DNA of 39,476 nucleotides, from assembly GCA_949285935.1 (NCBI GenBank), contig CASEAH010000038.1, forward strand, positions 1 through 39,476, given 5' to 3'. The notes under the pieces are model-generated. The model was not told where the DNA came from, did not search any database, and was given only the letters and a program-made list of their open reading frames with translations. The DNA comes from an uncultured Oscillospiraceae bacterium (GTDB lineage Bacteria; Bacillota; Clostridia; Oscillospirales; Ruminococcaceae). Both the position numbers and the translations under genes were made by a program. This document shows positions 25,737 through 39,476 of this stretch, piece by piece (the first letter of the stretch is position 1; the number at the start of each line of letters is the position of its first letter).

Positions 25737-27089
25737 TCATACATTCTGGATCAGGCCAATGGTGCGCCATTTGCCGCCTTTCCACCGGATCAGGAAGCAG
25801 ACAGCCCGAACACATTCATCAATGGCCATAGCGGCCCAAATCCCTGCCAGACCCCAGCCCAGCACCACTCCCAGCAGATAACCCAGCCCTACCGCCAGCC
25901 CCCACATACACAGGATGCCCAAAGCGATGGGGAACCGGATGTCTCCGGCAGCCTGCAGGCAGCGGACCATGGTCATATTGACTGCCCGGCCGATTTCCAG
26001 GGGGATTTCAATAGCCATAATCACCCGGGCCAACGCCAGCACCTGAGGGTCGGAAGTGAATATCCCGAAAACCGGACGATAGAACGCAAACAGCAGAAGG
26101 GAAACGGATGTGGATACCAGAAGAGAGACCCGCAGAGTAAGGCGAACCTGGCGGTCGGCACTTTCAGGATCCCGGCTTCCGATCAGGAAACCCACCACGA
26201 TCTGGCAGGCTTGGGAAAGGGCAGAGGAGAAGACATAGGAAAGCATGGCAAACATGGAGCAGTAGACTTTGGCGTTGATGACCAGAGTGCCAAAAAGATT
26301 GGCAAAGCCCTGGATGACGATCTGGGTGATATTGTAGGAAAGAGACTCGCCTCCGGAAGGCAGGCCGATGGAAAGAAGAAGATGAAGCTGTCTGCGGGGA
26401 AGAGGGCGCAGATACCGCAGAGAAATGCAGGGCCCGAATCGCCGTATAAAAATCCATATGATGACCAGGATGCCCACCAGACGGCTGAAGTTGCTGGAAA
26501 TGGCCACTCCCACGATCCCAAGAGGCGGAAGGGGCCCCACACCCCACAGCAGAGCAGCATTGCCTGCGATATTCAGCAGATTGACCAGAATGGAAATGAA
26601 CATGGATTCCTTCATCATGGCGTTGGCCCGGAAAAACGCGGAAAAGGTAAGATAGACCCCCTGCAGGATCATGCATCCGCCGATGATGGAGATGTACAGG
26701 CTGCTTTCGTCCAAAATCTCGGCCGGAACACGCATGAGCTGGAAAATCTCGCGGTTGAGCAAAAGAATGACCGCACTGTTGACCAGGCTGAAAAGAATAT
26801 TGACCACCAGGGAAATGGCATAAATTTCCCGTACCCGCTGTTGATTCCCGGAACCCAGGTACTGGGTAATGAGAATGGTGGAAGCCATGCTGATCACACT
26901 GAAGGTGAGGATCAGGACGTTGATGATTTGATTGGCATTACCGATGGCTCCCACGGAATTCTGGGAGAAGCGGGAAATCATAATCTGATCCACATTTCCC
27001 ACCAGCATCAGGAGCACCAGCTCCACAAAAATGGGCCAGGTAAGGGAGAACAGGTGATGGGGAGACGTAAGCCGCGCAGGATCGTTCAT
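25737..27089 (-). CDS. MATE-family efflux transporter
   Basis: A multidrug and toxic compound extrusion permease, 450 aa with about twelve transmembrane helices. Typical landmarks: LTWPIFVELVLLMLVGNVDQIMISRF in pieces at the N-terminus, GAIGNANQI, ASTILITQYLG, and the second-half SGGESLSYNITQIV. Such proteins export cationic drugs or metabolites in exchange for Na+ or H+; the substrate cannot be told. ATG 27089 is preferred: ATG 27119, ten codons upstream, has no ribosome site and would leave a leader of about 13 nt after the promoter. The choice is not certain. Confidence 0.9.
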   Translation of the reverse strand: MNDPARLTSPHHLFSLTWPIFVELVLLMLVGNVDQIMISRFSQNSVGAIGNANQIINVLILTFSVISMASTILITQYLGSGNQQRVREIYAISLVVNILFSLVNSAVILLLNREIFQLMRVPAEILDESSLYISIIGGCMILQGVYLTFSAFFRANAMMKESMFISILVNLLNIAGNAALLWGVGPLPPLGIVGVAISSNFSRLVGILVIIWIFIRRFGPCISLRYLRPLPRRQLHLLLSIGLPSGGESLSYNITQIVIQGFANLFGTLVINAKVYCSMFAMLSYVFSSALSQACQIVVGFLIGSRDPESADRQVRLTLRVSLLVSTSVSLLLFAFYRPVFGIFTSDPQVLALARVIMAIEIPLEIGRAVNMTMVRCLQAAGDIRFPIALGILCMWGLAVGLGYLLGVVLGWGLAGIWAAMAIDECVRAVCFLIRWKGGKWRTIGLIQNV

Positions 27090-27138
27090 TTTGGAACACG
27101 CTTCTTTCCTTGGAATCATAGTTCAATGCCAAGGTAGT

Positions 27139-27166
27139 ATTATAGTAAAATCAAACAACATGTCAA
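27139..27166 (-). promoter_or_regulatory. Promoter of the MATE gene
   Basis: On the minus strand consensus TTGACA (27166-27161), 16-bp spacer, consensus TATAAT (27144-27139). A strong promoter; no operator repeat is obvious. Confidence 0.8.
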
Positions 27167-27191
27167 CAACTAATTTGGAGAAAATTACTGC

Positions 27192-27226
27192 AAAACCCCT
27201 GGGGACACAGAGTCCGCAGGGGTTTT
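27192..27226 (-). terminator. Terminator of the BTAD regulator gene
   Basis: 10-bp stem 27192-27201 with 27217-27226, with an inner GGAC/GTCC pairing. On the minus strand the second arm ends in TTTT, just after the regulator stop. Confidence 0.8.
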
Positions 27227-27235
27227 ATAAAAATG

Positions 27236-28465
27236 CTACACAACAGGATCCAGTGGCTGAAGACGGTATTCCAGGGACACTGGGATCCGGGGATTCTCCT
27301 TTTTGAACCGTCGGATGATCCGCTCCATCACCATCTGCCCGTTCTCAAAGGTGAGGTAGGGGAGCATCAGTACATACTGGGTGGGGCTGAACAGGGATAC
27401 CACATCCCCCCGGCGCAGGCTGGAACAAATGGCCGTTTTAAGGCGGGCCATTGCCTTGGCGGAAAACTGCGGGTCAGGGATTTTGGAAGGTGAGGCAGTC
27501 AGGGTGATGAGCGCCACAAAGACCGAGCGCCCGGTACGGCTGGCAGAGCGTGCTTCCAGCTGATACATGTCCCGGAATACCTCATAGGGGCAAAAGAAGG
27601 GGCCGCGTGCTTCGTGGGGTTCCCGGAGATCCTCTTTGATGGCATCCAGATCACTTTCCGTATGGGTCATACGGCCTGCGATTTCCCGGTACAGCCCTCT
27701 TAAAGAGTCGGAGGGCTTCACTCCCAGTTCCCGATAAAACAGCCCGGTGACATATTCATAATGGGCCATGGCTTTCTGGGGACGCTCCATAGCCAGCTGG
27801 GCACGGATCAACGATTCATGAAAATATTCCTCCAGCTGATCCACAGTGACAGCCGCTTCACAGATATCCACCACATCTTCGTATCTCTTCTGGCTTTCCA
27901 GCAGATGGATAACTTCTGCGGCGGCTTTCAGGTACATGCTGTGGAAATAAGTCGCCAAAGGGATTACCCAGGCTTCGGAGGAAGATTTGGGAAGGAAATC
28001 GCCCGTGTACAGTTTGAGAGCTGCCTGATACAGGGAAATACGCTCCTCAGGAGGCAGAGAAAGATTGCCTGCGGTACGGATGAGACGCTCAAATTCTTCG
28101 GTATCCACCAAAGTAGGCAGAGAGTTGTTATAGGAATAGGTCCCTCGTTTGTACAGGATAAAATCCATGGAATCCGGGACCCTGTTCTCCGCCAGATCCG
28201 AGCGGATCCGATAGATCAGATTTTTCAGGGCATTGGCAGGATTGTCGATCCTGTTATCGGGCCACAGGGCAGAAATCAGTTCTTCATGAGAAATATCGCG
28301 GTTGCGGAAGGTAATCAGATATTCCAGAAGATTCCATAGCTGGCGGGCACGGCTGCTGCTGTCGTTGATGGTGCTGCCCGCTACCGTAAGGCTGAATCCC
28401 CCCAGCATGGTGATGCGCACCTGGGGCTGCCGGTCAGGAGAAGCAGACACGGTATTTGGTACCAC
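27236..28465 (-). CDS. SARP/BTAD-type transcriptional regulator with degenerate GGDEF-like tail
   Basis: A 409-aa regulator with three parts. A winged-helix OmpR-like DNA-binding domain (about 15-95: ITMLGGFSLTVAG, RQLWNLLEYLI, ELISALWPD) is followed by a bacterial transcriptional activation domain (about 105-245: VDTEEFERLI, LYTGDFLP, AHYEYVTGLFYRELG). The C-terminal part (about 275-409) resembles a GGDEF domain in layout (LRRGDVVSLFSPTQYVLML) but has SPTQY where GGDEF would be, so it should not make c-di-GMP. GTG 28465 is chosen for GGGGGGA 6 nt upstream. It diverges from the sortase/pilus-like run and may control it (inference). Confidence 0.85.
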   Translation of the reverse strand: MVPNTVSASPDRQPQVRITMLGGFSLTVAGSTINDSSSRARQLWNLLEYLITFRNRDISHEELISALWPDNRIDNPANALKNLIYRIRSDLAENRVPDSMDFILYKRGTYSYNNSLPTLVDTEEFERLIRTAGNLSLPPEERISLYQAALKLYTGDFLPKSSSEAWVIPLATYFHSMYLKAAAEVIHLLESQKRYEDVVDICEAAVTVDQLEEYFHESLIRAQLAMERPQKAMAHYEYVTGLFYRELGVKPSDSLRGLYREIAGRMTHTESDLDAIKEDLREPHEARGPFFCPYEVFRDMYQLEARSASRTGRSVFVALITLTASPSKIPDPQFSAKAMARLKTAICSSLRRGDVVSLFSPTQYVLMLPYLTFENGQMVMERIIRRFKKENPRIPVSLEYRLQPLDPVV

Positions 28466-28504
28466 AAAGCATCCCCCCAAAAAATCTGCGTTATATTTAT
28501 ACTT

Positions 28505-28513
28505 ATTATAGCA
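28505..28513 (-). promoter_or_regulatory. Extended -10 promoter of the BTAD regulator
   Basis: On the minus strand TGC plus consensus TATAAT (28510-28505). No clear -35. It lies about 40 nt upstream of the GTG start. Confidence 0.6.
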
Positions 28514-28804
28514 TACATCTCGGGAAGGTACCAGGAGACGGGGACATTTTCTCTCAATCCATATGTGTTGCCAACCACGCCATACCCTGATATGAAATTG
28601 TAAGGAGCCATGGCAATATTCTCAAAGCAGGCGCGCTGCCAACTGCGCTGTATCCGAATCAAATGATAGGGTGACTTGGGCATATCCTCCCGAAGCCGAT
28701 GTGATATCAGCCGGGCCGGATTTCGGCATGGAATTATGGAGGGGTACAGGCGTTTTCCCTTAAAGGATTTCCTTAAAGCGGCTTTATTTTTTTTGAAAAT
28801 CCGA
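28514..28804. other. Divergent intergenic region between regulator and sortase operon
   Basis: About 290 nt without a supported gene. The piece at about 28527-28553 (GGTACCAGGAGACGGGGACA and on) resembles short repeats with a GGGGAC core seen scattered in clostridial genomes, but only one copy is present here. The rest probably holds regulatory sites; none can be named. Confidence 0.4.
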
Positions 28805-28810
28805 TATAAT
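28805..28810 (+). promoter_or_regulatory. -10 element of the sortase/pilus-like operon
   Basis: Consensus TATAAT (28805-28810), about 40 nt upstream of the sortase start. The best -35 at 17-bp spacing, CTTTAT (28782-28787), is weak, which would fit an activator-dependent promoter. Confidence 0.5.
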
Positions 28811-28852
28811 GTTAGTGGATGGGTAAACAGATCTGGGAACAGGAGTATGGGG

Positions 28853-29656
28853 TTGAACAGAGAAAACAATTCAGGTAGCGGCAGACGGGAAAGTCAAAAG
28901 CTGTTATGGCAGACTTTTCTGCTGCTTGGGATAGGAGCCCTGCTGATTGCGGGAGGGATATGGGTCCTGCGGCCCGACAGGGAGGCGGATCTTCCTCAAA
29001 GTGTTTCATCACAGCCCGCATCCGCTTCCCGGCCTGAAATTTCCGCCCCATCGGTCCCGGAAGAGCCATTGCTGGAGGCGGGGCACCTTTATCTCAGCGA
29101 CCGGAGAGAAAAATATCAAAACGGGGAGATGACCCTGACCATCCCCCGCCTGGGAGTGGAAAGCGTCCAGGTGCAGGACGGCACCGGCGATGAAGAACTG
29201 TCGCGGGGGCCGGGACTTTTTGAATATGCTCAGATGCCCTCGGAAAACGGGGGAAATGTCAGCATTGCGGGGCACAGGGATATTGACGGGGCGATTTTCT
29301 ATTATGTACACAATCTTTCCGCCGGAGATTATTTTTACCTGGACTGGCAGGGGAAAACATATCGGTACATATACGAAAAAACCTATGTGGTTGCTCCCGA
29401 TAACTGGGATCCCATTCAGGCCCAGGGATATTCCTGCCTGACGCTGGTATCCTGCGATCCTATTGGAACCAGCCTTAACCGCATTATTGTGGTGGCACGA
29501 CAGGATCAGGCTGTGGAGACCACAGCGGAGTATGACTATAAACCATGGCAGGATGGAATGGAAAAGCCTTATGCCTGGGAACCGGACGCGGTACCGTATG
29601 ACCGGCAACCCGAACCGGATCCCGTGAAAGAACAAAAGGAGGTGACGTCAGCATGA
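28853..29656 (+). CDS. Sortase-family transpeptidase
   Basis: Sortases cleave a sorting motif in a surface protein and join it to an amine on the cell wall or a pilin. The 267-aa protein has an N-terminal anchor (about 20-38), a Ser/Pro/Glu linker and a sortase barrel with catalytic His141 (SIAGHRD), Cys201 (LTLVSCDP) and Arg210 (SLNRIIVVAR). The AGHR and TLxSC pattern fits the class D/E/F side of the family rather than SrtB; the class is not certain. TTG 28853 gives ideal spacing to AGGAG (28841-28845); ATG 28847 is two codons earlier but too close. It is the first gene of the run, overlapping the next by ATGA. Confidence 0.9.
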   Translation: MNRENNSGSGRRESQKLLWQTFLLLGIGALLIAGGIWVLRPDREADLPQSVSSQPASASRPEISAPSVPEEPLLEAGHLYLSDRREKYQNGEMTLTIPRLGVESVQVQDGTGDEELSRGPGLFEYAQMPSENGGNVSIAGHRDIDGAIFYYVHNLSAGDYFYLDWQGKTYRYIYEKTYVVAPDNWDPIQAQGYSCLTLVSCDPIGTSLNRIIVVARQDQAVETTAEYDYKPWQDGMEKPYAWEPDAVPYDRQPEPDPVKEQKEVTSA

Positions 29657-30849
29657 AAAGAAATTTGAGACGAACAGCGGCGCTGATGCTGGCTTTGATG
29701 CTGACGCTGACGTGTGCCTGCTCCAGCGGCGGAGCCCCGTCTTCCGGGGAAGAACCTGGAGACGGAATGGTATCATTCCTGTCGGGCTCCGAATCCTTCA
29801 GCCAGATGATGACGGATGAGGGATCGGGCGGTGAAGAAGCAGAAGACGACGGGGAGTTATCAGAAGAGGAAAGTCCGGAAGAAGATTCCCGTGAAAGCGG
29901 GCAGACACAACCGCTGGCAGGTGGGGAAACGCAGGAAATCTCTGCATCTTCATCATTCCAGGAGACGCAGAAGCCTCAGGAAGAACTGCCCCAGACCGGC
30001 GCTTCCGAAGGAGAAGGGGATACTGCGTTGAAGGATCCCACCTATACAGTGCTTTCTCCGGTGGCGTCGGGGACCGAGGTGTATGGCAACAGTCTGGTGA
30101 CCATTGACGCCTCCAATACCAGTGAAGGATATGTGATGATCAAATATACCGGCAACAGCTCCAAGGTCCGGGTGCTCATTACTCCGGATGGCGGCAGCCA
30201 GTATACATATACCATTCGCATGGACGGCGGATACGATGTCTTTCCGCTTTCTTCCGGCAGCGGCGGCTACACCATCGGCGTTTACGAGAATATTGGAGGC
30301 AATCAGTACAGTACGGCGTTCAGCCAATATATTACTGCCAGCCTGCGCGCCTCCACGCTCCCTTTTCTGTATCCCAACCAATATGTAAATTTTTGGGCCG
30401 GATGCAATACCGTCAATATGGGGGCAGAGCTGTCCCGCAGTGCCCAAAGCGACCTGCAGATTGTGGAAAACGTCTATAACTACGTGATCAACAATATTTC
30501 TTATGATTTTTATAAAGCGCAAAATTTTGGCTTTGGGTACCTGCCTTCTGTAGACAACATTTTGGCTACGGGCAAGGGCATCTGTTTTGATTACGCGGCG
30601 GTAATGGCCGCCATGCTCCGCAGCCAGATGATTCCCACCAAGCTGGTGGTGGGCTATGCGGGCAATATTTATCATGCATGGATCTCCACCTACATCACTG
30701 ATGTGGGGTGGGTCAACGGGATTATCTATTTTGACGGGCAGTCCTGGGTGCGGATGGATCCAACCTTTGCATCCAGCGGCAACAGCAGTCCTGATATTAT
30801 GGCCTATATCGGAAACGGAAGCAATTATAACGCCATGTTCTATTATTGA
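29653..30849 (+). CDS. Transglutaminase-like lipoprotein with internal LPQTG motif
   Basis: The 398-aa protein starts with a lipoprotein-like signal (LMLTLTCACSSGG; lipidated Cys probably 21 or 23), followed by an acidic Ser/Glu linker (about 30-125) with an exact LPQTG at 112-116 (29986-30000). A beta-rich domain (about 130-235) and a transglutaminase-like domain come next, with an intact triad Cys311 (GKGICFDYAAV), His341 (YHAWI) and Asp369 (RMDPTF). Such domains act as cysteine proteases or cross-linkers on surface proteins or peptidoglycan. AGGAGGTGA precedes ATG 29653. It overlaps the sortase stop and lies 30 nt before the PilC-like gene. The substrate is unknown. Confidence 0.85.
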   Translation: MKRNLRRTAALMLALMLTLTCACSSGGAPSSGEEPGDGMVSFLSGSESFSQMMTDEGSGGEEAEDDGELSEEESPEEDSRESGQTQPLAGGETQEISASSSFQETQKPQEELPQTGASEGEGDTALKDPTYTVLSPVASGTEVYGNSLVTIDASNTSEGYVMIKYTGNSSKVRVLITPDGGSQYTYTIRMDGGYDVFPLSSGSGGYTIGVYENIGGNQYSTAFSQYITASLRASTLPFLYPNQYVNFWAGCNTVNMGAELSRSAQSDLQIVENVYNYVINNISYDFYKAQNFGFGYLPSVDNILATGKGICFDYAAVMAAMLRSQMIPTKLVVGYAGNIYHAWISTYITDVGWVNGIIYFDGQSWVRMDPTFASSGNSSPDIMAYIGNGSNYNAMFYY

Positions 30850-30879
30850 GCATGGGAAGCCTGAACGGAGGAATGACCC

Positions 30880-31938
30880 ATGGCAGTCATTGAAAACGGG
30901 AAAAAACAGCTTTCCCCCAATGAGATATCCGCCTTCTGCGCCCAGTTATCCCTGATCGTCAAAGCCGGCATTTCTGTGCAGGAAGGCCTTGCCATTATGC
31001 TGGGCGATACGGGGAACAGCCGGGGGCAGGAGATCATCCGGAGCCTTATGACGGTTACGGAGGAGGGAAGGCCTCTGCATCATGCTCTGCAGGAAGCAGG
31101 ATGCTTCCCCAAATATGTAGTGGATATGATAGAGATCGGTGAAACATCCGGACGTTTGGACGAGGTGCTGGACTCCCTCTGCGCCTACTATGAGCGTAAT
31201 GAAGCCATCAGCAAAAGCATCCGCAACGCGGTGACCTATCCCGCGGTGATGATCGTGATGATGCTGGCGGTGATCGTGGTGCTGGTGGTAAGCGTCCTGC
31301 CCATTTTCAGCCAGGTGTTCCGCCAGCTGGGGGGAGAAATGTCTGCCTTTGCCCAGGGCGTTATGAATTTTGGCATGGCTCTCAGCCGCTATTCCGCTGT
31401 GATCGTGGGAGTGATTCTGGTGGCTGCGGCAGCCCTGCTTTGGCTGAGCCGCACGCCGGCGGGCAGAGAAAAGATCCGGCGGATTTCCGGTTCTTTTCTT
31501 GCTGCCCGCAGATTGTCTGCCAAGGTGGCGTCCGGGCGGTTTGCCTCGGCTATGTCTCTGATGCTTTCCAGCGGCCTGGATGTGGATCAGTCCATTGCCA
31601 TGGCGGCCCACCTGGTGGAGAATCCTGACGCCCGTCAGAAGATACAGCGGGTGCGGGATCTCATTGCCGGCGGCACCTCTTTTGCGGACGCGGTGGTCCA
31701 GGCGGAAATTTTTTCCGGCGTCTACTCCCGGATGATTGCCGTTGGCTTCCGCACCGGCGCGGTGGATTCGGTGATGAAAAAAATTGCCCAGCGGTATGAA
31801 GAAGAGATCGACACCGAGATCAGCCACATTCTCTCTATCCTGGAGCCGACCCTGGTGGCTGTGCTGTCGGTCATTGTGGGGATGATCCTGCTTTCGGTGA
31901 TGCTGCCCCTGATGGGGATCATGTCCTCCATCGGCTGA
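30880..31938 (+). CDS. Type II secretion/type IV pilus inner-membrane platform protein (GspF/PilC family)
   Basis: The 352-aa protein has the two repeated T2SSF domains. The first (about 15-135) includes FCAQLSLIVKAGISVQEGL, GCFPKYVVDMIEIGETSGRLDEVL in pieces and IRNAVTYPAVM. The second (about 210-335) has RFASAMSLMLSSGLDVDQSI and MIAVGFRTGAVDSVM. Transmembrane segments lie at about 123-147, 165-190 and 322-347. The protein would be the membrane platform that couples the PilT ATPase to a pseudopilus. Length is slightly below PilC (about 400). ATG 30880 follows GGAGGAATGACCC. Confidence 0.93.
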   Translation: MAVIENGKKQLSPNEISAFCAQLSLIVKAGISVQEGLAIMLGDTGNSRGQEIIRSLMTVTEEGRPLHHALQEAGCFPKYVVDMIEIGETSGRLDEVLDSLCAYYERNEAISKSIRNAVTYPAVMIVMMLAVIVVLVVSVLPIFSQVFRQLGGEMSAFAQGVMNFGMALSRYSAVIVGVILVAAAALLWLSRTPAGREKIRRISGSFLAARRLSAKVASGRFASAMSLMLSSGLDVDQSIAMAAHLVENPDARQKIQRVRDLIAGGTSFADAVVQAEIFSGVYSRMIAVGFRTGAVDSVMKKIAQRYEEEIDTEISHILSILEPTLVAVLSVIVGMILLSVMLPLMGIMSSIG

Positions 31939-31968
31939 TGCCGGGGAAGATGAAAGGGGGCTGACGGT

Positions 31969-32337
31969 ATGAACCGCTTTGGAAAAACCAGAAAAGAGCA
32001 TACCTTTTTCCAGGAAATGGCCCTGCCCATCGGATTTTTCCTGCTGACAGGGGCGCTGGTGCTTTGGGGGGTCCGGGATGTGGAACAAAGCACCCGGGCG
32101 CAGCAGCTGGCGTCTACGGAAGAAGCCATCCGCCGGGCGGCGGTGCAGTGCTACGCTGTGGAGGGGCAGTATCCCCAGAGCGTAAGTTATCTGGAAGAGC
32201 ATTATGGGCTGATGATCGACCATGACCGGTATATTGTACATTACATGGGTTTTGCCTCCAACCTGATGCCGGATATCGCGGTGTTTCCGGTGGATGGCGA
32301 GACTGGGGACCACATAACCAATGACAGCGGGGAGTGA
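31969..32337 (+). CDS. Small membrane-anchored pilus-associated protein
   Basis: Family not named. The 122-aa protein has a short basic N-terminus, one transmembrane helix (about 18-36, LPIGFFLLTGALVLWGV) and a hydrophilic part with EEAIRRAAVQCYAVEGQYPQSVSYLEEHYGL in pieces. That pattern (long helix, then Ala/Tyr-Pro before Tyr-Leu) is the one seen in type IV pseudopilins. There is no clear prepilin peptidase site (no Gly followed by Glu at +5). AAAGGGGG precedes ATG 31969. Likely a component or assembly partner of the filament; its place in the run is the main evidence. Confidence 0.75.
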   Translation: MNRFGKTRKEHTFFQEMALPIGFFLLTGALVLWGVRDVEQSTRAQQLASTEEAIRRAAVQCYAVEGQYPQSVSYLEEHYGLMIDHDRYIVHYMGFASNLMPDIAVFPVDGETGDHITNDSGE

Positions 32338-32342
32338 AGAGC

Positions 32343-32822
32343 ATGAGAGAAATCGGAGACAGGGGGCATCTCATTGATTTTTTGTTTACCCTTGCTTTGT
32401 TCTGCGTCTTTGCCCTGTCCGCCCTTGCTGTGGTGATGATCGGCGCGGATGTCTACCGGTCCACTGTGGCGGAAATGCGCCGCAGCTATGATTCCCGCAC
32501 TTCTGTCACTTATATTGCTGAAAAGATCCGCCAGAACGACCGGGCGGGAGCGGTTTCGGTACAAGCTTTTGGCGACGGCGACGCGCTGGTGCTGGAGCAG
32601 ACGGTAAACGGAAGTGTATACGAGACTTATATCTATGCGGACGGAGGCAAGCTTCGGGAGCTTCTGATCCCCCAGGGGTTGGAGCTGGAGCCTGCCGACG
32701 GGCAGAGCATTATGGAAATCACGGAATTCCATGTAGAGCTGACAGAGGACCGCCTGGTCCGGCTGGAAGTGATCAGCGCCGACGGAACGGTGTCACAGAT
32801 GTCGGTAGCCCCACGCTGCTGA
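32343..32822 (+). CDS. DUF4860-like membrane protein of the pilus-like locus
   Basis: The 159-aa protein has one transmembrane helix (about 12-35, LFTLALFCVFALSALAVVMIG) directly followed by DVYRSTVAEMRRSYDSRTSVTYIAEKIRQND in pieces, which fits the DUF4860 pattern I recall from clostridial pilus-like loci, then a beta-rich tail. It resembles a PilW/GspJ-type minor pseudopilin in layout but lacks the prepilin cleavage motif. ATG 32343 is preferred over GTG 32334, because GGGGAG is then 8 nt upstream. It lies 5 nt after the previous gene. Confidence 0.75.
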   Translation: MREIGDRGHLIDFLFTLALFCVFALSALAVVMIGADVYRSTVAEMRRSYDSRTSVTYIAEKIRQNDRAGAVSVQAFGDGDALVLEQTVNGSVYETYIYADGGKLRELLIPQGLELEPADGQSIMEITEFHVELTEDRLVRLEVISADGTVSQMSVAPRC

Positions 32823-32853
32823 AGCGGCAAAACTGATTAAAGGAGGAAACGCC

Positions 32854-33300
32854 ATGGCGATCCACAGAACACCCAAATCGGGTTTGTTCCTGCTGGAAAT
32901 GGTGATCCTGATCCTGTTTTTTTCCATAGCCAGCGCGGTGTGCGTCAATTTATTCGTTAAAGCACATGTCATCAGCGGTCAAAACCGGGACCTTAACGAA
33001 GCGGTACGTCAGGTTCAGTCTGCCGCAGAGACCTACAAGGCAGTCAACGGTGATCCTCAAAAACTGATGGAAACGCTGGGCCTTTCGGAATACTCAGACG
33101 GCTATGCGGCGTGGTTCGATGGCGATTGGACACGGCTGGAATCTCCCGAAAGCGCCCGGTATCTGCTGGTCCTGACTCCGGAAGAGACAGAAAATGGTCT
33201 GATCCGGGCCCATGTGGCAATGCGGAGGCTGACGGAAGATCAGCAACAGGGAGAGGAAGAAGAAATTTACAGCATTGAAGTAAAAAAATATCTGGGCTGA
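32854..33300 (+). CDS. Type IV prepilin-like protein
   Basis: The 148-aa protein carries what looks like a prepilin peptidase site: Gly10, then LFLLE with Glu15 at +5, then a hydrophobic helix (about 11-33). The hydrophilic remainder starts with a continued helix (NRDLNEAVRQVQSAAETYKAV) and has a small C-terminal domain. These features fit a pilin or minor pseudopilin processed by a prepilin peptidase encoded elsewhere. AAAGGAGG precedes ATG 32854. It is the only one of the four small proteins with a clear G/E+5 motif. Confidence 0.8.
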   Translation: MAIHRTPKSGLFLLEMVILILFFSIASAVCVNLFVKAHVISGQNRDLNEAVRQVQSAAETYKAVNGDPQKLMETLGLSEYSDGYAAWFDGDWTRLESPESARYLLVLTPEETENGLIRAHVAMRRLTEDQQQGEEEEIYSIEVKKYLG

Positions 33301-33486
33301 ACACCCGGGAGTTTTGGACGATCCACGCCGGTTCGCAATTGAGGGCCGGGAAAGCGCAGCTATGATCTGTTTTGGCAAAATACCACAGTTGGAAAAGCTG
33401 GATGGTCCATTTTGTTTTATGAAAAGCTTCTCAGGAGGCCGCGCCTGGAAGTGCGGCGCCGCTTCTAAATTTTATGGAAAGGGGGG
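33301..33486 (+). other. Gap within the pilus-like run
   Basis: About 190 nt, in contrast to the tight spacing elsewhere in the run. TTGAGG (33339-33344), 16-bp spacer and TATGAT (33361-33366) could be an internal promoter. A GC-rich hairpin lies near 33437-33465. No gene is supported. Confidence 0.4.
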
Positions 33487-33492
33487 ACCCTT

Positions 33493-34242
33493 GTGGCCGG
33501 AAAGAAAATCAATACCGGAATCAGCGTGGGAAGCTCATCCATCCTGGTCATTTTTGTGGTCCTTTGCCTGACCACCTTTGCCACGTTGTCGCTGGTATCA
33601 GCCAATGCTGATTATCGGCTGACGCTCCGGGTGGCGGATGAGACGGCAGACTACTACGCAGCAGACGCTCAGGCGGAAGAATTGCTGATGCAGATCGATC
33701 AAAGCATGGATCTGAGCTATGCCACGGCCCAGATTTATGCCCAATATCAGAAGTCTTTTGGGGACAGCCTCAAGGATGCTGCCGCGCAGTTTTTTGGAGA
33801 GACGCTTCAAACAGGCAACTGGTGGCTGGATGGCTTTTTCGGCGCGATTTCCGATTTTATCGCGGCCGATCCCCAAAAGGGAGGAGAAACCGCAGCCGAA
33901 CCGTTCCCTTACAGCGACATCCTTCCCGACGGCCTGACACAGCGGGAGGCATATTCCGTCTTGCTTCGTCACATCCTTACTTCCGAGCTGGAAGGAGTGA
34001 CCATTGCAGACATGGATGAAAACCCTGCCGCCCCGGTGCTGATCCTGGAATATCAGGTCCCGGTAAGTGAAAGCAGGGTCTTGCAGGTGCGGGTGGATGC
34101 GTCCCAGCGGTACTACCGGGAAGGTGGGAAGCTGGAACGTCTGGAATGGGCGGTGGCCTCTGTGCAGGAATGGGAGGAGCCGGAGATGCCCGGTCTGATG
34201 ACCGGTTTGCCGCAGATGGAAGAAGATGGGGCTTCTTCCTGA
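33493..34242 (+). CDS. PilX-like membrane-anchored protein of the pilus-like locus
   Basis: Family not named. The 249-aa protein starts with a short basic part and a hydrophobic helix (about 15-38, SSSILVIFVVLCLTTFATL) followed by SANADYRLTLRVADETADYYAADAQAEELLMQI in pieces. This long N-terminal helix with the AD-x-x-A pattern resembles PilX-type minor pilins, although no Glu stands at +5. The remainder is a mixed domain ending in a strand-rich part and an acidic tail. GTG 33493 follows AAAGGGGGGA. Between the prepilin-like gene and pilT. Confidence 0.75.
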   Translation: MAGKKINTGISVGSSSILVIFVVLCLTTFATLSLVSANADYRLTLRVADETADYYAADAQAEELLMQIDQSMDLSYATAQIYAQYQKSFGDSLKDAAAQFFGETLQTGNWWLDGFFGAISDFIAADPQKGGETAAEPFPYSDILPDGLTQREAYSVLLRHILTSELEGVTIADMDENPAAPVLILEYQVPVSESRVLQVRVDASQRYYREGGKLERLEWAVASVQEWEEPEMPGLMTGLPQMEEDGASS

Positions 34243-34279
34243 AAACAGCCCGGAAATCTCTGTATAAGGATGGTGCTCC

Positions 34280-35341
34280 ATGGAACTGACGCAGATGCTT
34301 CAGGAAGCGGTACGCAAAGGCGCTTCAGATATTTTTATGGTTTCAGGCCTGCCGCTGGCTTATAAGATTGGCAACCAGATCATAGCCCAGGAAGGTGAAA
34401 AGCTGATTCCGGCCCGGACGGCGGAACTGATTGCCGGTGTTTATCAAATGGCAGGAGAGCGGGATATGAACATCCTGAGGGAAACGGGTGATGATGACTT
34501 CTCCTTTTCTCTGCAGGGTGTATCCCGCTTCCGGGTCAGTGCTTACCGCCAGCGGGGTTCCCTGGCTGCGGTGATCCGGGTGGTCGCCTTTGACCTGCCG
34601 GATCCCCAGGCATTGGGAATCCCGGAAACAGTGCTGAACCTTTCTCAGCGGACCAAAGGCCTGGTGCTGGTTACGGGCCCGGCGGGAAGCGGCAAGTCCA
34701 CTACCCTGGCCTGTATCATTGACCGGATCAATAATACCCGCAATGCCCATGTCATTACGTTGGAGGATCCCATCGAATACCTGCACAGCCACAAAAAGAG
34801 TGTGGTGAGCCAGCGGGAGATCTCTACCGATACGGCGAGCTATGTGACTGCTCTCCGGGCGGCGCTGCGCCAGGCGCCGGACGTGATCCTGCTGGGAGAA
34901 ATGCGGGACCAGGAAACCATCGCCACAGCTATGACCGCTGCTGAAACAGGGCACCTGGTTTTTTCCACTCTACATACGGTGGGAGCAGCCAATACCGTCG
35001 ACCGGATCATTGACGCTTTCCCTCCCAACCAGCAGGCCCAGGTACGGGTGCAGCTTTCCATGGTATTGCAGGGAGTGGTAAGTCAGCAGCTTATTCCCGC
35101 TGAGGACGGCTCTGTAGCCCCTGCCTTTGAAATCATGCTTTGCAACGGAGCCATCCGTAATATGATCCGGGAATCCAAAATCCATCAGATGGATACCGTT
35201 ATTTATTCTTCCGCGGGAGAAGGCATGGTAAGCATGGACGGAAGCATCCTGGAACTGTACAAGCAGGGACGGATCAGCGCCCGGAATGCGGTTATTTACA
35301 GCACCAATGCCGATCTGATGGCAAAGAGGACCCAGGGCTGA
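34280..35341 (+). CDS. pilT: PilT-type retraction ATPase
   Basis: A hexameric secretion ATPase of the PilT branch, 353 aa. It has the PAS-like N-terminal domain (SDIFMVSGLPLAYKI), Walker A GPAGSGKST (133-141), Asp box (ITLEDPIEYLH), Walker B region (PDVILLGEMRD), His box (STLHT), and AIRNMIRE (291-298), which corresponds to the AIRNLIRE motif needed for pilus retraction in PilT proteins. PilT normally works opposite an assembly ATPase (PilB), but no such gene is in the window. ATG 34280 is 37 nt after the PilX-like gene; the upstream ribosome site is weak. Cytoplasmic, at the PilC-like platform. Confidence 0.93.
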   Translation: MELTQMLQEAVRKGASDIFMVSGLPLAYKIGNQIIAQEGEKLIPARTAELIAGVYQMAGERDMNILRETGDDDFSFSLQGVSRFRVSAYRQRGSLAAVIRVVAFDLPDPQALGIPETVLNLSQRTKGLVLVTGPAGSGKSTTLACIIDRINNTRNAHVITLEDPIEYLHSHKKSVVSQREISTDTASYVTALRAALRQAPDVILLGEMRDQETIATAMTAAETGHLVFSTLHTVGAANTVDRIIDAFPPNQQAQVRVQLSMVLQGVVSQQLIPAEDGSVAPAFEIMLCNGAIRNMIRESKIHQMDTVIYSSAGEGMVSMDGSILELYKQGRISARNAVIYSTNADLMAKRTQG

Positions 35342-35369
35342 CGAGTAGCTGACAGGAGGCTGCACAGAT

Positions 35370-35771
35370 ATGAAAGAATGTCTTACAGACCGGGATCTTC
35401 AGCTGGTAGAAGAGGCACGGAAAGCGATCAGCCGCAGCTATGACCCGGTAGGTTTTGACCACACAGTAGGCGCGGCGGTGCTCTGTACCGATGGGGAGAT
35501 CTATACCGGGATCAATCTTTATTCTGTTCATGGAGCCTGTGGAGAATTTATTGCCCTTGGAGCTGCCATGACCCATGGCCAGAGAAGCTTTGAAACGATT
35601 GTAGCAGTGGAAGGAGCAGAAGGCGAGAGAGTCCTGCCGCCATGCGGCAACTGCCGTCAAATGCTTTGTCATTATGCTCCCGGCTGCCGGGTGATCCTCT
35701 CGGGGGAAGAGGGGCTGTTTAAAGTCCCGGTGGAAGAACTGCTCCCCTACGCTTATGAGGTTCAGCCGTGA
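35370..35771 (+). CDS. Cytidine-deaminase-like zinc enzyme
   Basis: The 133-aa protein has the zinc deaminase fold of the Cdd/blasticidin-S deaminase group. The catalytic motif is HGACGEF (Cys57, Glu59, where classic CDA has CAE) and the second metal motif is PPCGNCRQ (Cys92, Cys95). DHTVGAAVLCTDGEIYTGINL precedes them in pieces. Residues before the active Cys (VHGAC) are closer to blasticidin-type deaminases than to B. subtilis Cdd. AGGAGG precedes ATG 35370. Last gene before the terminator; a link to the filament genes is not apparent and may be accidental. Confidence 0.85.
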   Translation: MKECLTDRDLQLVEEARKAISRSYDPVGFDHTVGAAVLCTDGEIYTGINLYSVHGACGEFIALGAAMTHGQRSFETIVAVEGAEGERVLPPCGNCRQMLCHYAPGCRVILSGEEGLFKVPVEELLPYAYEVQP

Positions 35772-35790
35772 AGATACAGGAACCATCCTC

Positions 35791-35840
35791 AAAAATTTTT
35801 GTGCAGGGAAGTCTTTAAGACACTCTGCACAAATTTTTAT
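35791..35840 (+). terminator. Terminator of the pilus-like/deaminase run
   Basis: TTTGTGCAG (35798-35806) pairs with CTGCACAAA (35825-35833); an A5/T5 extension and T-run (35834-35838) follow, and the loop contains a GTCTT/AAGAC pair. Confidence 0.75.
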
Positions 35841-35848
35841 TGAATGAA

Positions 35849-35875
35849 AAAGCCACCGGGTTATCCGGTGGCTTT
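35849..35875 (-). terminator. Terminator downstream of pepT
   Basis: Perfect 11-bp stem 35849-35859 with 35865-35875. On the minus strand it is followed by TTTTTC, which suits the pepT transcript although it is about 200 nt past the stop. Confidence 0.65.
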
Positions 35876-36079
35876 AAAAACAGCTGCACTCCCAATATCC
35901 AAATCAAAAGGAAAAGGGTAATGGGATGGTATGAATTTTTCTCATCCCGTCAGAAGCAACGTCAGAATCGTTCTGCAAAATAAAAGCTTGGAGAATCATG
36001 AGCTGAAAAGCCCTTCAGATCCCGGCATATTTCTGAACGATAGGGGATACATTATATGGAAATCAAAAGGCCGTTTGCT

Positions 36080-37315
36080 TTATTGGTCCCAATCAGATGA
36101 GGCGTAACGCTTTACCAAAGCGACCAGAAGCTGTGTTACTTTTTCCATAGCCTGCACCGGAATAAATTCAAAAGGACCATGGAAATTGAAACCGCCGGTA
36201 CACAGGTTGGGGCAGGGAAGTCCCATGAAGGAAAGCCGGGCCCCGTCCGTACCGCCGCGGATAGGCACCACCATGGGAGAGATCCCCAGTTCTTCCATGG
36301 CAAGACGGGCGTTGCGGATGAGATGAAAATGGGGAAGGATCTGCTCTTTCATGTTGCGGTAGGAGTCAGAGATAACAGCCGTGACGGTGCCTGCACCATA
36401 AACACTGTTGAGATATTCTGCAGCAGCCAGAAAACGATCCTTTTTTTCCTGGAAGCGAGCAGCGTCGTGATCCCGGATCAGATATTCCATAGAAGCTTTT
36501 TCCACAGTTCCCTGAAGCTGATCCAAATGGAAAAAGCCTTCATATCCTTCGGTATAGGCGGGATTTTGCTCAGGGGGGAGCAGGCGATGCAGCTCCATGG
36601 CTACCAGCAGAGCATTGACCATCTTGTTTTTGGCAGAACCGGGATGGATGCTTTTGCCCCGGATAGCAACCTTGACATTGGCGGCATTGAAATTCTCATA
36701 CTCCAGTTCTCCCAGTTCCCCGCCGTCCACGGTATAGGCAAAATCTGCACCAAAACCCTGGACATCAAAATAAGCAGGGCCATTCCCCACTTCCTCATCA
36801 GGGGTAAAAGCGATACGGATGGGGCCGTGGGGGATTTTTTCTTCCAGAACGAGCTGGGCCATGGACATGATCTCGGACACGCCCGCCTTGTCGTCTGCCC
36901 CCAGAAGAGTGGTGCCGTCGGTAACGATCAGATCCTGACCCTTGCAGCGTTCCAGGCATTCAAACTCCTCAGGCGAAAGATGGAGATCCAGGGTGGGATT
37001 GAGCAGGATGTCTTCACCGTTATAGTTGGGGACAATCCGCGCTTTGATGTTGGTGCCGCTGCAGGCGGGGGCAGTATCCATGTGGGCAATAAAGCCCAGA
37101 ACGGGGCGGTCCTCCAGACCGGGTGTGGGAGGAAGGGAAGCATAGACATAGCCGTGTTCATCCAGACGGGCATCTTCGGCGCCCATTTCTTTCAGCTCCT
37201 GAGCCAGCAAACGCCCCAGTGCCAGCTGTTTTTGTGTGCTGGGGACAGTCTCCTGATCCGGGGCCGACTGGGTATCAAAACCAACATAACGGAGAAAACG
37301 TTGGGCAGTATTCAT
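36080..37315 (-). CDS. pepT: Peptidase T (tripeptide aminopeptidase)
   Basis: PepT is a cytoplasmic M20 zinc aminopeptidase that removes the first residue of tripeptides. The 411-aa protein has metal ligands in GFIAHMDTAP (His78, Asp80), LLGADDKAG and TPDEEVG, plus YTVDGGELGELEYENFNAA and RGGTDGARLSF. ATG 37315 has AGGAGG (minus strand) at good spacing; the nineteen codons upstream in frame include the promoter. It is a single-gene unit diverging from trhA. Confidence 0.96.
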   Translation of the reverse strand: MNTAQRFLRYVGFDTQSAPDQETVPSTQKQLALGRLLAQELKEMGAEDARLDEHGYVYASLPPTPGLEDRPVLGFIAHMDTAPACSGTNIKARIVPNYNGEDILLNPTLDLHLSPEEFECLERCKGQDLIVTDGTTLLGADDKAGVSEIMSMAQLVLEEKIPHGPIRIAFTPDEEVGNGPAYFDVQGFGADFAYTVDGGELGELEYENFNAANVKVAIRGKSIHPGSAKNKMVNALLVAMELHRLLPPEQNPAYTEGYEGFFHLDQLQGTVEKASMEYLIRDHDAARFQEKKDRFLAAAEYLNSVYGAGTVTAVISDSYRNMKEQILPHFHLIRNARLAMEELGISPMVVPIRGGTDGARLSFMGLPCPNLCTGGFNFHGPFEFIPVQAMEKVTQLLVALVKRYASSDWDQ

Positions 37316-38351: not shown

Positions 38352-39476
38352 TTATGCGGGAATATCTTGCAGTTGTGGGATATTGGCTGATTCCGAGTTA
38401 AGCAGGGATGCGGATAAGGCGGGCTTTGCTTCACCCGGCAACATCCCGCTGTCCACCGCGCCGATATCCCGGTAGAAGATGCGCACGCTCTGCCCGCTGC
38501 TGCGGGAGTATTTCTTTCCCCGTTCCCCGATCTCGATCCGCCGGATGAACAACCGCAGCAGGTCCGGCGTCAGCTCCTCTATGGCGGTGTACCGCTTGGC
38601 TTTCTCAATGAAGGCCTCCACGTTGGCGACAGAAGCCCGCAGTTCTTCCAGCCTGGCCTCCATCCTGGGGATGGCTTCCTCCCGCGCCTTCTGCTCGGCG
38701 TTGTAGTCGGCGGAGAGCATCCGGAACTGCTCGTTGGTCACCCGACCCAGCACATTGTCCTCGTAGAGCCGCTTGAACAGCGCTGACAACTCCCCGCACC
38801 GCTTCTTCCCAGCGTCCAGTTCCTTTTGCAGCCGGGAGATCTCCCGGCGCAGCTGGGCGCTGTTTTTCTGCTGGATGTACTCGGCAAACTGCCGCTCCTT
38901 CTTCCGGGCGAAATGGGTGACCCTTTTCAGATCGTCCAGAACAATGGCTTTCAGATCCCGTTCCAGGATCTGATGGGGCGTGCAGAACGCCTTCCCCTTC
39001 TTGCCATAGGTGGAGCACCGGAAGTAGTACTGATCCTCCCGCATCTTCTCGGTCCGGCAGAGCACCAAATACCCGCCGCAGTCGGCGCAGTAGACCAGCC
39101 CGGAGAACAGCCCCGGCTCCTCCATGTGCTTGGGCGCCCGGCGCTTGTGCCGGCGCACCTCCCGGACAATCTCCCAGAGCTCCTGGGAGATGAGGGGCTC
39201 GTGGGTGTTCTCCACCAGCGCCTGCTCACTCTCCGGGCGCTTTACCTCCGCCTTGTTCTTGTAGGAGACGGTGGTGGTCCGCAGCCCCAGGGTATGGCCC
39301 CGGTAGACGATGTTGTCCAGGATGTGGGCCACCGACGCCCCCGACCAGTGGCAGGGCTGGCTGGTGTCCAATCCACAGAGGGCCGCTCCTGTCCGGCGGA
39401 AGTAATAGTTGGAGGGGTTGAGCACCTGCTCCGCCGTCAGCTGCCGGGCGATCTGGCTGGGGCCTTTCCCGGCGGC
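38352..39476 (-). CDS. Large serine recombinase, C-terminal part (truncated by window end)
   Basis: The frame is open to the window edge, so the catalytic resolvase domain lies outside. The visible 374 residues hold the end of the recombinase DNA-binding domain (VAHILDNIVYRGHTLGLRTTTVSYKNK in pieces), a zinc ribbon with CADCGG and later cysteines (RCSTYG, FCTPH), a coiled coil (about 38600-38900) and a C-terminal DUF4368-like segment (IRRIEIGERGKKYSRSSGQSVRIFYRDIG in pieces). Such proteins integrate and excise transposons and ICEs. Its base composition looks higher in GC than trhA, suggesting recent transfer. The stop at 38352 marks the element's left end region. Confidence 0.9.
   Translation of the reverse strand, partial: AAGKGPSQIARQLTAEQVLNPSNYYFRRTGAALCGLDTSQPCHWSGASVAHILDNIVYRGHTLGLRTTTVSYKNKAEVKRPESEQALVENTHEPLISQELWEIVREVRRHKRRAPKHMEEPGLFSGLVYCADCGGYLVLCRTEKMREDQYYFRCSTYGKKGKAFCTPHQILERDLKAIVLDDLKRVTHFARKKERQFAEYIQQKNSAQLRREISRLQKELDAGKKRCGELSALFKRLYEDNVLGRVTNEQFRMLSADYNAEQKAREEAIPRMEARLEELRASVANVEAFIEKAKRYTAIEELTPDLLRLFIRRIEIGERGKKYSRSSGQSVRIFYRDIGAVDSGMLPGEAKPALSASLLNSESANIPQLQDIPA

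Follow-up and report, generated by a model that had tools for sequence, protein, structure and literature searches.

The stretch of DNA analyzed here in its entirety (the window) is a contig of 39,476 bases from an uncultured Oscillospiraceae bacterium (CASEAH010000038.1, assembly GCA_949285935.1); the genome to which it belongs spans 2.44 Mb, is split into 110 contigs and is listed as 89% complete. According to the list of open reading frames and to Pfam and NCBIfam domain scans, nine frames follow one another on its plus strand at about 28847-35771 (Table 1). An earlier note on this DNA had described nine co-directional genes for a sortase, a transglutaminase-like lipoprotein (tgl), a PilC/GspF platform, four single-helix proteins, a PilT ATPase and a deaminase-like enzyme, and this description was borne out by the frames and their Pfam and NCBIfam matches. 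The note had treated all nine as one unit; the core conserved in relatives comprises seven genes, tgl-pilC-s4-DUF4860-s6-s7-pilT, because the deaminase occurs at 1/41 loci of the family and a sortase of the window's type at 8/41. With slightly more than even confidence, we propose that these seven genes would encode a machine derived from type IV filaments, having no extension ATPase, unprocessed pilins and a PilT-type motor.

Table 1. Genes of the locus and their supporting matches (E-values unless bits are stated).
Gene or product	Coordinates	Strand	Status	Match or remark
BTAD/winged-helix transcriptional regulator	27236..28480	-	optional neighbor	PF03704 4.6e-20; PF00486 1.2e-6
sortase	28847..29656	+	optional neighbor	PF04203 1.8e-24; start uncertain, upstream TTG at 28676 possible
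tgl, secreted transglutaminase-like, lipoprotein-like signal by eye	29653..30849	+	core	Transglut_core PF01841 1.4e-20
pilC, GspF/PilC platform protein	30880..31938	+	core	T2SSF PF00482 2e-46
s4, single-helix protein with CYAxEGxYP motif, perhaps ComGC/GspG-like	31969..32337	+	core	no family match
DUF4860 protein, probably pilin-derived (putatively GspJ/PilW-like)	32334..32822	+	core	PF16152 2.4e-32
s6, pilin-like, Glu+5 conserved, -1 residue unconserved	32854..33300	+	core	pilin profile match
s7, putatively GspK/PilX/ComGG-like, Gly 13 nearly invariant	33493..34242	+	core	weak profile match
pilT, PilT-family ATPase	34280..35341	+	core	T2SSE PF00437 2.8e-45; TIGR01420 PilT/PilU 410.9 bits (cut-off 319.1)
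cytidine deaminase-like	35370..35771	+	bystander	dCMP_cyt_deam_1 PF00383 5.9e-9

A seven-gene order conserved in many genera

The seven-gene order was found in the window and at 37/46 further loci of the family, at 8/13 loci fetched from other families of the phylum and at 56/80 loci from titled genome records, the latter being the best 80 among 592 retrieved with tgl. This gives 102 loci, window included, or about 100 after subtraction of two known duplicates (L120 and L122, repeats of L045 and L043), a number that speaks against a chance arrangement; the earlier note had held that an order not conserved in related genomes would speak against its proposal, and the order proved to be conserved. 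As family loci were collected through DUF4860 and titled loci through tgl, the presence of the respective gene in each set is by construction. One DUF4860 match, in genome G003 (locus L116), came without a cassette; it is included in the 46 loci and in the 140 cassette loci considered below, and stands outside the 46 family genomes that carry the cassette. Among the carriers of all seven genes are Christensenella hongkongensis, Clostridium clostridioforme, Hungatella effluvii, Pseudobutyrivibrio and Acetobacterium tundrae; a metagenome-assembled genome under the name Acetobacterium woodii also carries the cassette (L197), as do cultured isolates. Of 123 genera sampled within the family, 40 have DUF4860, one of them (that of G003) without the cassette.

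Gene presence was scored at 40 same-family DUF4860 loci with profiles built iteratively from the proteins of the window. Counting the window, pilC, s4, DUF4860 and s6 were present at 41/41 loci, s7 at 39/41, pilT at 38/41 and tgl at 37/41, the misses of s7 and pilT falling at contig ends. Residues C311, H341 and D369 of tgl, which we take to be catalytic, were invariant in 36/36 aligned sequences, and most tgl proteins carry a lipoprotein-like signal by eye.

Extension ATPase and prepilin peptidase

In the genome of the window, a single T2SSE match exceeded the cut-off, namely the window PilT, which stays below the cut-offs of the PilB, GspE and ComGA models, and a second match reached 18 bits; no extension ATPase was found by these searches, and a search for an A24 prepilin peptidase at E ≤ 1 returned 0 matches. 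DUF4860 was detected in 47/148 genomes of the family, 46 of them with the cassette (G003 excepted). A24 was matched in 66/148 (63 over cut-off), about equally often without the cassette (43/102) and with it (23/46). A long PilB-like ATPase (E below 1e-100) is also held by 16 of the 46 cassette genomes, seven hold only shorter extra ATPases, apparently Tad-like by length and score, and 23 hold neither type; none of these 23 had an A24 match. Restricting the 23 to those with a completeness of at least 90% and a contamination of no more than 5% leaves 13, of which 11 gave exactly one ATPase match at 1e-8; the other two are G014, with two matches at contig ends that resemble one split gene, and G075, with a second weak match. 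Of 13 genomes from other families, two (G367 and G483) showed a single ATPase and gave no A24 match, and Christensenella hongkongensis likewise has one ATPase over cut-off and no match to A24.

These counts argue for a conserved machine that works without PilB and PilD in many genomes, rather than for a locus that is missing parts. They support, in the window's own genome and in relatives, the earlier note's suggestion of a type IV filament-like system that is reduced and has one ATPase. Its other suggestion, that PilB or a prepilin peptidase might be borrowed from elsewhere in the genome, is not supported, because the genome-wide search gave no PilB or A24 match in the own genome, which is 89% complete, nor was there one in 11/13 near-complete peptidase-free relatives. 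The peptidase is apparently dispensable in some lineages, and in others it is present, possibly serving other systems. PilM, PilN and PilO, which the note had also listed as absent, are not among the genes of the locus; their absence is judged at the locus only, because the PilN Pfam model is insensitive (3/15 PilB-positive controls match).

The cassette PilT and PilC form groups of their own

In phylogenetic trees, 67/68 sampled cassette PilTs made up one split (support 0.983), the exception being that of locus L112, and 84/84 sampled cassette PilCs made up one split (support 0.998) against eight conventional PilCs. In both cases sampling left out two thirds of the sequences of L120-L199; the PilT trees also exclude ATPases shorter than about 330 amino acids and that of L100, and the 20 'PILT' comparison sequences include one cut PilB (L066). 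The Walker B pattern was found in 68/68 cassette PilTs and Walker A in at least 56, counting its five commonest forms. The Asp that precedes Walker B in 39/39 conventional PilT and PilB proteins compared is replaced by Ala or Ser in 58/68 cassette PilTs, and eight fall outside the pattern. The window ATPase scored 141.2 bits against the ComGA model (cut-off 300), and the platform scored 130.1 bits against ComGB (cut-off 240) and 220.6 bits against TIGR02120, the equivalog model of GspF of the type II secretion system (T2SS), whose cut-off is 424.

Pilin-like small proteins and their processing signals

Each of s4, s6 and s7 shows by eye one N-terminal hydrophobic stretch, in agreement with the description as single-helix proteins, and the remaining one of the four belongs to the DUF4860 family. 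The prepilin site with Gly and Glu+5 that had been ascribed to one small protein is that of the window s6, which carries the pattern G/xxxxE. Prepilins are cleaved after a conserved glycine (PMC6711533, in excerpt). Among 37 scored family members of s6, Glu+5 was kept in 35 (Gln in two) and the -1 residue was Gly in 12, window included; at the other loci it was Ser (6), Pro (4), Asn (3), Thr (3), Arg (2) or, in single cases, Glu, Ala, Gln, Phe, Leu, Met and Ile. The 37 leave out L044, L048 and L074, where the start was predicted too far downstream, and L063, cut at a contig end, was omitted from alignment A3. In 95 further s6 sequences scoring above 35 bits, a set that includes five family loci, L112 and the two duplicates, Glu+5 was present in 94 and Gly at -1 in 24. 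The frequency of this Gly did not differ between genomes with A24 (6/18) and without it (6/19). The s6 cleavage site has apparently decayed, and the simplest reading would be that selection on cleavage was lifted and selection on Glu+5 retained.

By eye, no class III signal pattern was seen in s4 and DUF4860 of the 41 family loci, and the cassette pilins as a group do not share the conserved Gly at position -1 of such signals, s6 coming closest. In s4, the C, Y, E, G and P of the CYAxEGxYP motif are invariant, and the motif is presumably GspG/ComGC-like.

Pfam gave no match at E up to 1 for the window s4, s6 and s7. In profile-profile comparisons with conventional pilins from related pilus loci, s6 reached a probability of 94.6% and DUF4860 of 76.9%, and seven other clusters of conventional pilus loci scored at most 3.5%. 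The protein s4 reached 26.9% against the pilins and 82% against s6; s7 reached 39.8% against s6 and, as its best conventional match, a weak 15.8% against a large cluster labelled PilX-like. The conventional set consisted of 35 sequences from a cluster of 41 and was picked by signal pattern, so it was used for no -1 count. Profile searches of the PDB were informative for s6 alone, with type IV pilins as top matches (E 0.0036). Single members of s4, s6 and s7 in Pfam, and of s4, DUF4860 and s7 in NCBIfam, gave scattered, mostly chance-like matches. Those of pilin type appeared in no more than one or two members each: T2SSI (0.0049) and N_methyl (0.037) for s6, ComGG (8.5e-4) for DUF4860, ComGE (0.024) for s4, and PilX_N (0.052), ComGG (0.0038), GspH (0.023) and, in two members, a TadE-like model (0.021) for s7.

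A locus of transitional type, L112, lies in a genome that is 96% complete (G354:C123:8500-24699) and has the order pilT-pilC-s4-DUF4860-s6-s7-pilD-tgl. Its linked PilD is a full-length A24 peptidase, and its DUF4860 and s6 homologues carry canonical prepilin signals (G/YTLVE in the former), the s6 homologue matching N_methyl over the cut-off and the DUF4860 homologue below it. The s4 homologue matched the ComGC model at 6.6e-4 and the s6 homologue weakly matched the ComGE and ComGF models, in all cases below cut-off. A search of G354 for a long PilB found none, among four other T2SSE matches. This single locus suggests that PilB may have been lost before PilD.

Proposed mechanism and alternative explanations

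In the machine that we propose, PilC would act as the membrane platform and the four small proteins as bitopic proteins that retain a short basic leader. Their roles might be ComGC/GspG-like for s4, GspJ-like for DUF4860, GspI-like for s6 and GspK/ComGG-like for s7, and together they would probably form a short complex comparable to the tip that minor pilins build in pili and T2SS, one that stays in the membrane instead of polymerizing into a long filament. Cycles of the PilT-type ATPase would move this complex through PilC, and the moved complex would exert its push or pull beyond the membrane, acting either on the wall or on the transglutaminase-like enzyme, which is probably the working end. 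The sequences themselves show the gene content and its order, the single ATPase with no A24 match in many genomes, the -1 Gly lost from s6 with Glu+5 kept, the motor and enzyme motifs and the one transitional locus. We infer the lack of cleavage in the cell, the lack of a long filament, the pilin assignments and the action of force on the enzyme, and we favor a short device held in the membrane that exerts force together with the transglutaminase-like enzyme.

Several observations weigh against this proposal. The negative searches in the own genome rest on a genome that is 89% complete, and in two other sets A24 is common, in 10/13 DUF4860 genomes of other families and in 28/29 genomes behind the titled loci, the same 28 having two or more ATPase matches; processing is therefore possible there. 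Gly at -1 persists in a quarter to a third of s6 members, the window included, and s7 has Gly 13 in 38/39 sequences, with no Glu+5. The profile matches rest largely on the N-terminal helix, where helix-only similarity may inflate scores, and s4 and s7 are linked to pilins by weak sequence similarity only. The cassette itself is not uniform: tgl went undetected at three family loci where no contig end accounts for the miss (L049, L052 and L062), and pilT is not adjacent to the first six genes at 18/80 titled loci. Of the genomes with such loci, 14 were searched, and 14/14 had a match to an ATPase of 350-385 amino acids elsewhere, one of them (G567) with an internal stop codon; membership in the cassette was established for none of these 14 matches. 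The genome G463, of another family and listed as 100% complete, has pilC and the four small genes (L113, C2:62000-81000), with tgl not found there and with no match to A24 or, in a T2SSE search at 1e-8, to any ATPase.

Some of these points favor instead a dynamic type IV filament, with s4 as major pilin, processed by an unrecognized or signal-type peptidase, and a PilT-family ATPase that both extends and retracts, a reading that we hold to be unlikely. The kept Gly 13 of s7 and the frequency of A24 behind the titled loci would suit it, as would the presumed GspG/ComGC-like motif of s4 and the sub-threshold ComGC match of its L112 homologue; it is opposed by the 23/46 family cassette genomes without an A24 match, by Pro, Arg and Glu among the -1 residues of s6 and by the class III signal not seen in s4. 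A divergent DNA-uptake (Com-like) pseudopilus of Clostridia, in which PilT takes the place of ComGA, seems to us improbable. The weak matches of the L112 s4 and s6 homologues to Com models point that way, and the own genome has ComEC, but this gene is present in 137/148 genomes of the family and so does not discriminate; moreover, the window ATPase and platform lie far below the ComGA and ComGB cut-offs, and a secreted transglutaminase-like enzyme is not a known Com part. Equally poor are the prospects of a cassette that would use the PilB and PilD of a conventional type IV pilus, as its accessory copy or relic, for which speak the long PilB-like ATPase in 16/46 family cassette genomes and the G116 cassette (L066), several kb from a pilB-pilT pair, and against which stand the 23/46 with neither PilB-like ATPase nor A24, the well-supported separate groups of cassette PilT and PilC, and the order and putative catalytic residues conserved over many genera.

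Relation to known systems

Coming back to the proposed force device, one of the systems near to it is the Com pilus of monoderms (ComGA-GG, ComC). It too has few parts, its operon holding a single ATPase, a single platform and several pilin-like proteins, with PilM, PilN and PilO likewise not seen at the locus. The Com pilus depends on ComC, its prepilin peptidase, and on class III signals (PMC10790768, in excerpt), whereas in the cassette the cleavage site seems decayed and a peptidase is often missing, the ATPase is of PilT type, there are four pilin-like genes in place of five, and a transglutaminase-like enzyme is added. With the type IVa pilus of Clostridia the cassette shares a PilC platform, a PilT ATPase and pilin-like genes; it differs in that the locus is without PilB, PilD and a major pilin with a class III signal, and in the distinct PilT and PilC groups. 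The tip complex of the T2SS pseudopilus (GspH/I/J/K) similarly places pilin-like proteins on a GspF-type platform, and here the cassette locus is without GspE, secretin and the GspO peptidase and its ATPase is PilT-type.

Absence of the peptidase from the locus is also known from MSH systems, which according to the excerpted text of PMC6668835 occur systematically in genomes whose T2SS, type IVa pilus or Tad system encodes a peptidase; many cassette genomes, in contrast, have no A24 match at all. Filament-like loci without signals or peptidase were noted earlier, as far as the excerpts go, for Gram-positive tad-like loci with no apparent prepilin signal (PMC3244431) and for archaea with no detected peptidase, in Nanoarchaeota (PMC4471445) and in Nanohaloarchaeota clusters (PMC9563170). 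In the tad-like loci, unlike the cassette, tadV and an ATPase of TadA type are retained, and the archaeal cases are other systems; a PilT-only motor with a transglutaminase-like enzyme is not described for either in the excerpts of those papers. In the literature searched, seen partly in excerpt and with subscription papers and preprints outside its scope, no description of the cassette and no paper on the DUF4860 family (PF16152) was found. The literature takes prepilin processing, the peptidase and the extension ATPase for features of all or nearly all type IV filaments (PMC4471445, PMC6711533, both in excerpt), and the cassette appears to break these usual rules for its class of machine. 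If true, the proposal would show what a platform and a PilT motor alone are capable of and would give DUF4860 a setting, and it is testable, since DUF4860 is found in 40/123 genera and the cassette in cultured isolates.

Neighboring genes and other features of the locus

The earlier note had coupled the sortase to the machine. Its place as a coupled core part is weakened, since a sortase lies near 29/140 cassette loci and 0/20 comparison loci (19 with pilB and one Tad-like, L100; among the 140 are L116 and both duplicates); the association thus seems genuine, though optional. Of 28 sortase copies that were placed, 28 lie within 2.5 kb of the cassette and 27 are co-directional with it. Relatives of the BTAD regulator, which in the window lies upstream of the cassette and outside the coordinates given in the earlier note, were found near 44/140 cassette loci and 1/20 comparison loci. 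The deaminase of the window has no relative at the other 40 family loci, nor at the other-family or titled loci, and on this distribution is a bystander. A cluster with a GGDEF protein, possibly a mixed cluster, occurs near 28/137 cassette loci. The other flanking families were mixed or resembled chromosomal neighbors, and several 'inside' clusters were antisense frames.

The gap of about 190 nucleotides mentioned in the earlier note is real (33301-33492, between s6 and s7) and peculiar to the window among its relatives, in 38 of which the predicted coding ends of the two genes are at most 84 nucleotides apart. The gap had no Rfam match, and an Rfam scan of 26000-36500 at gathering scores found no RNA; promoter-like sites (9 vs 5.9 in shuffled sequence) and terminator-like sites (8 vs 7.6) were both near the shuffled expectation. 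A plasmid origin was considered and rejected: 11 plasmid records gave short matches, none over more than 80% of the query, and the five listed fall in the PilT region.

At the end of the contig, a minus-strand frame (38352-39476) that is open at the contig end looks by eye like a large serine recombinase, and given this frame the contig end may lie in a mobile element.

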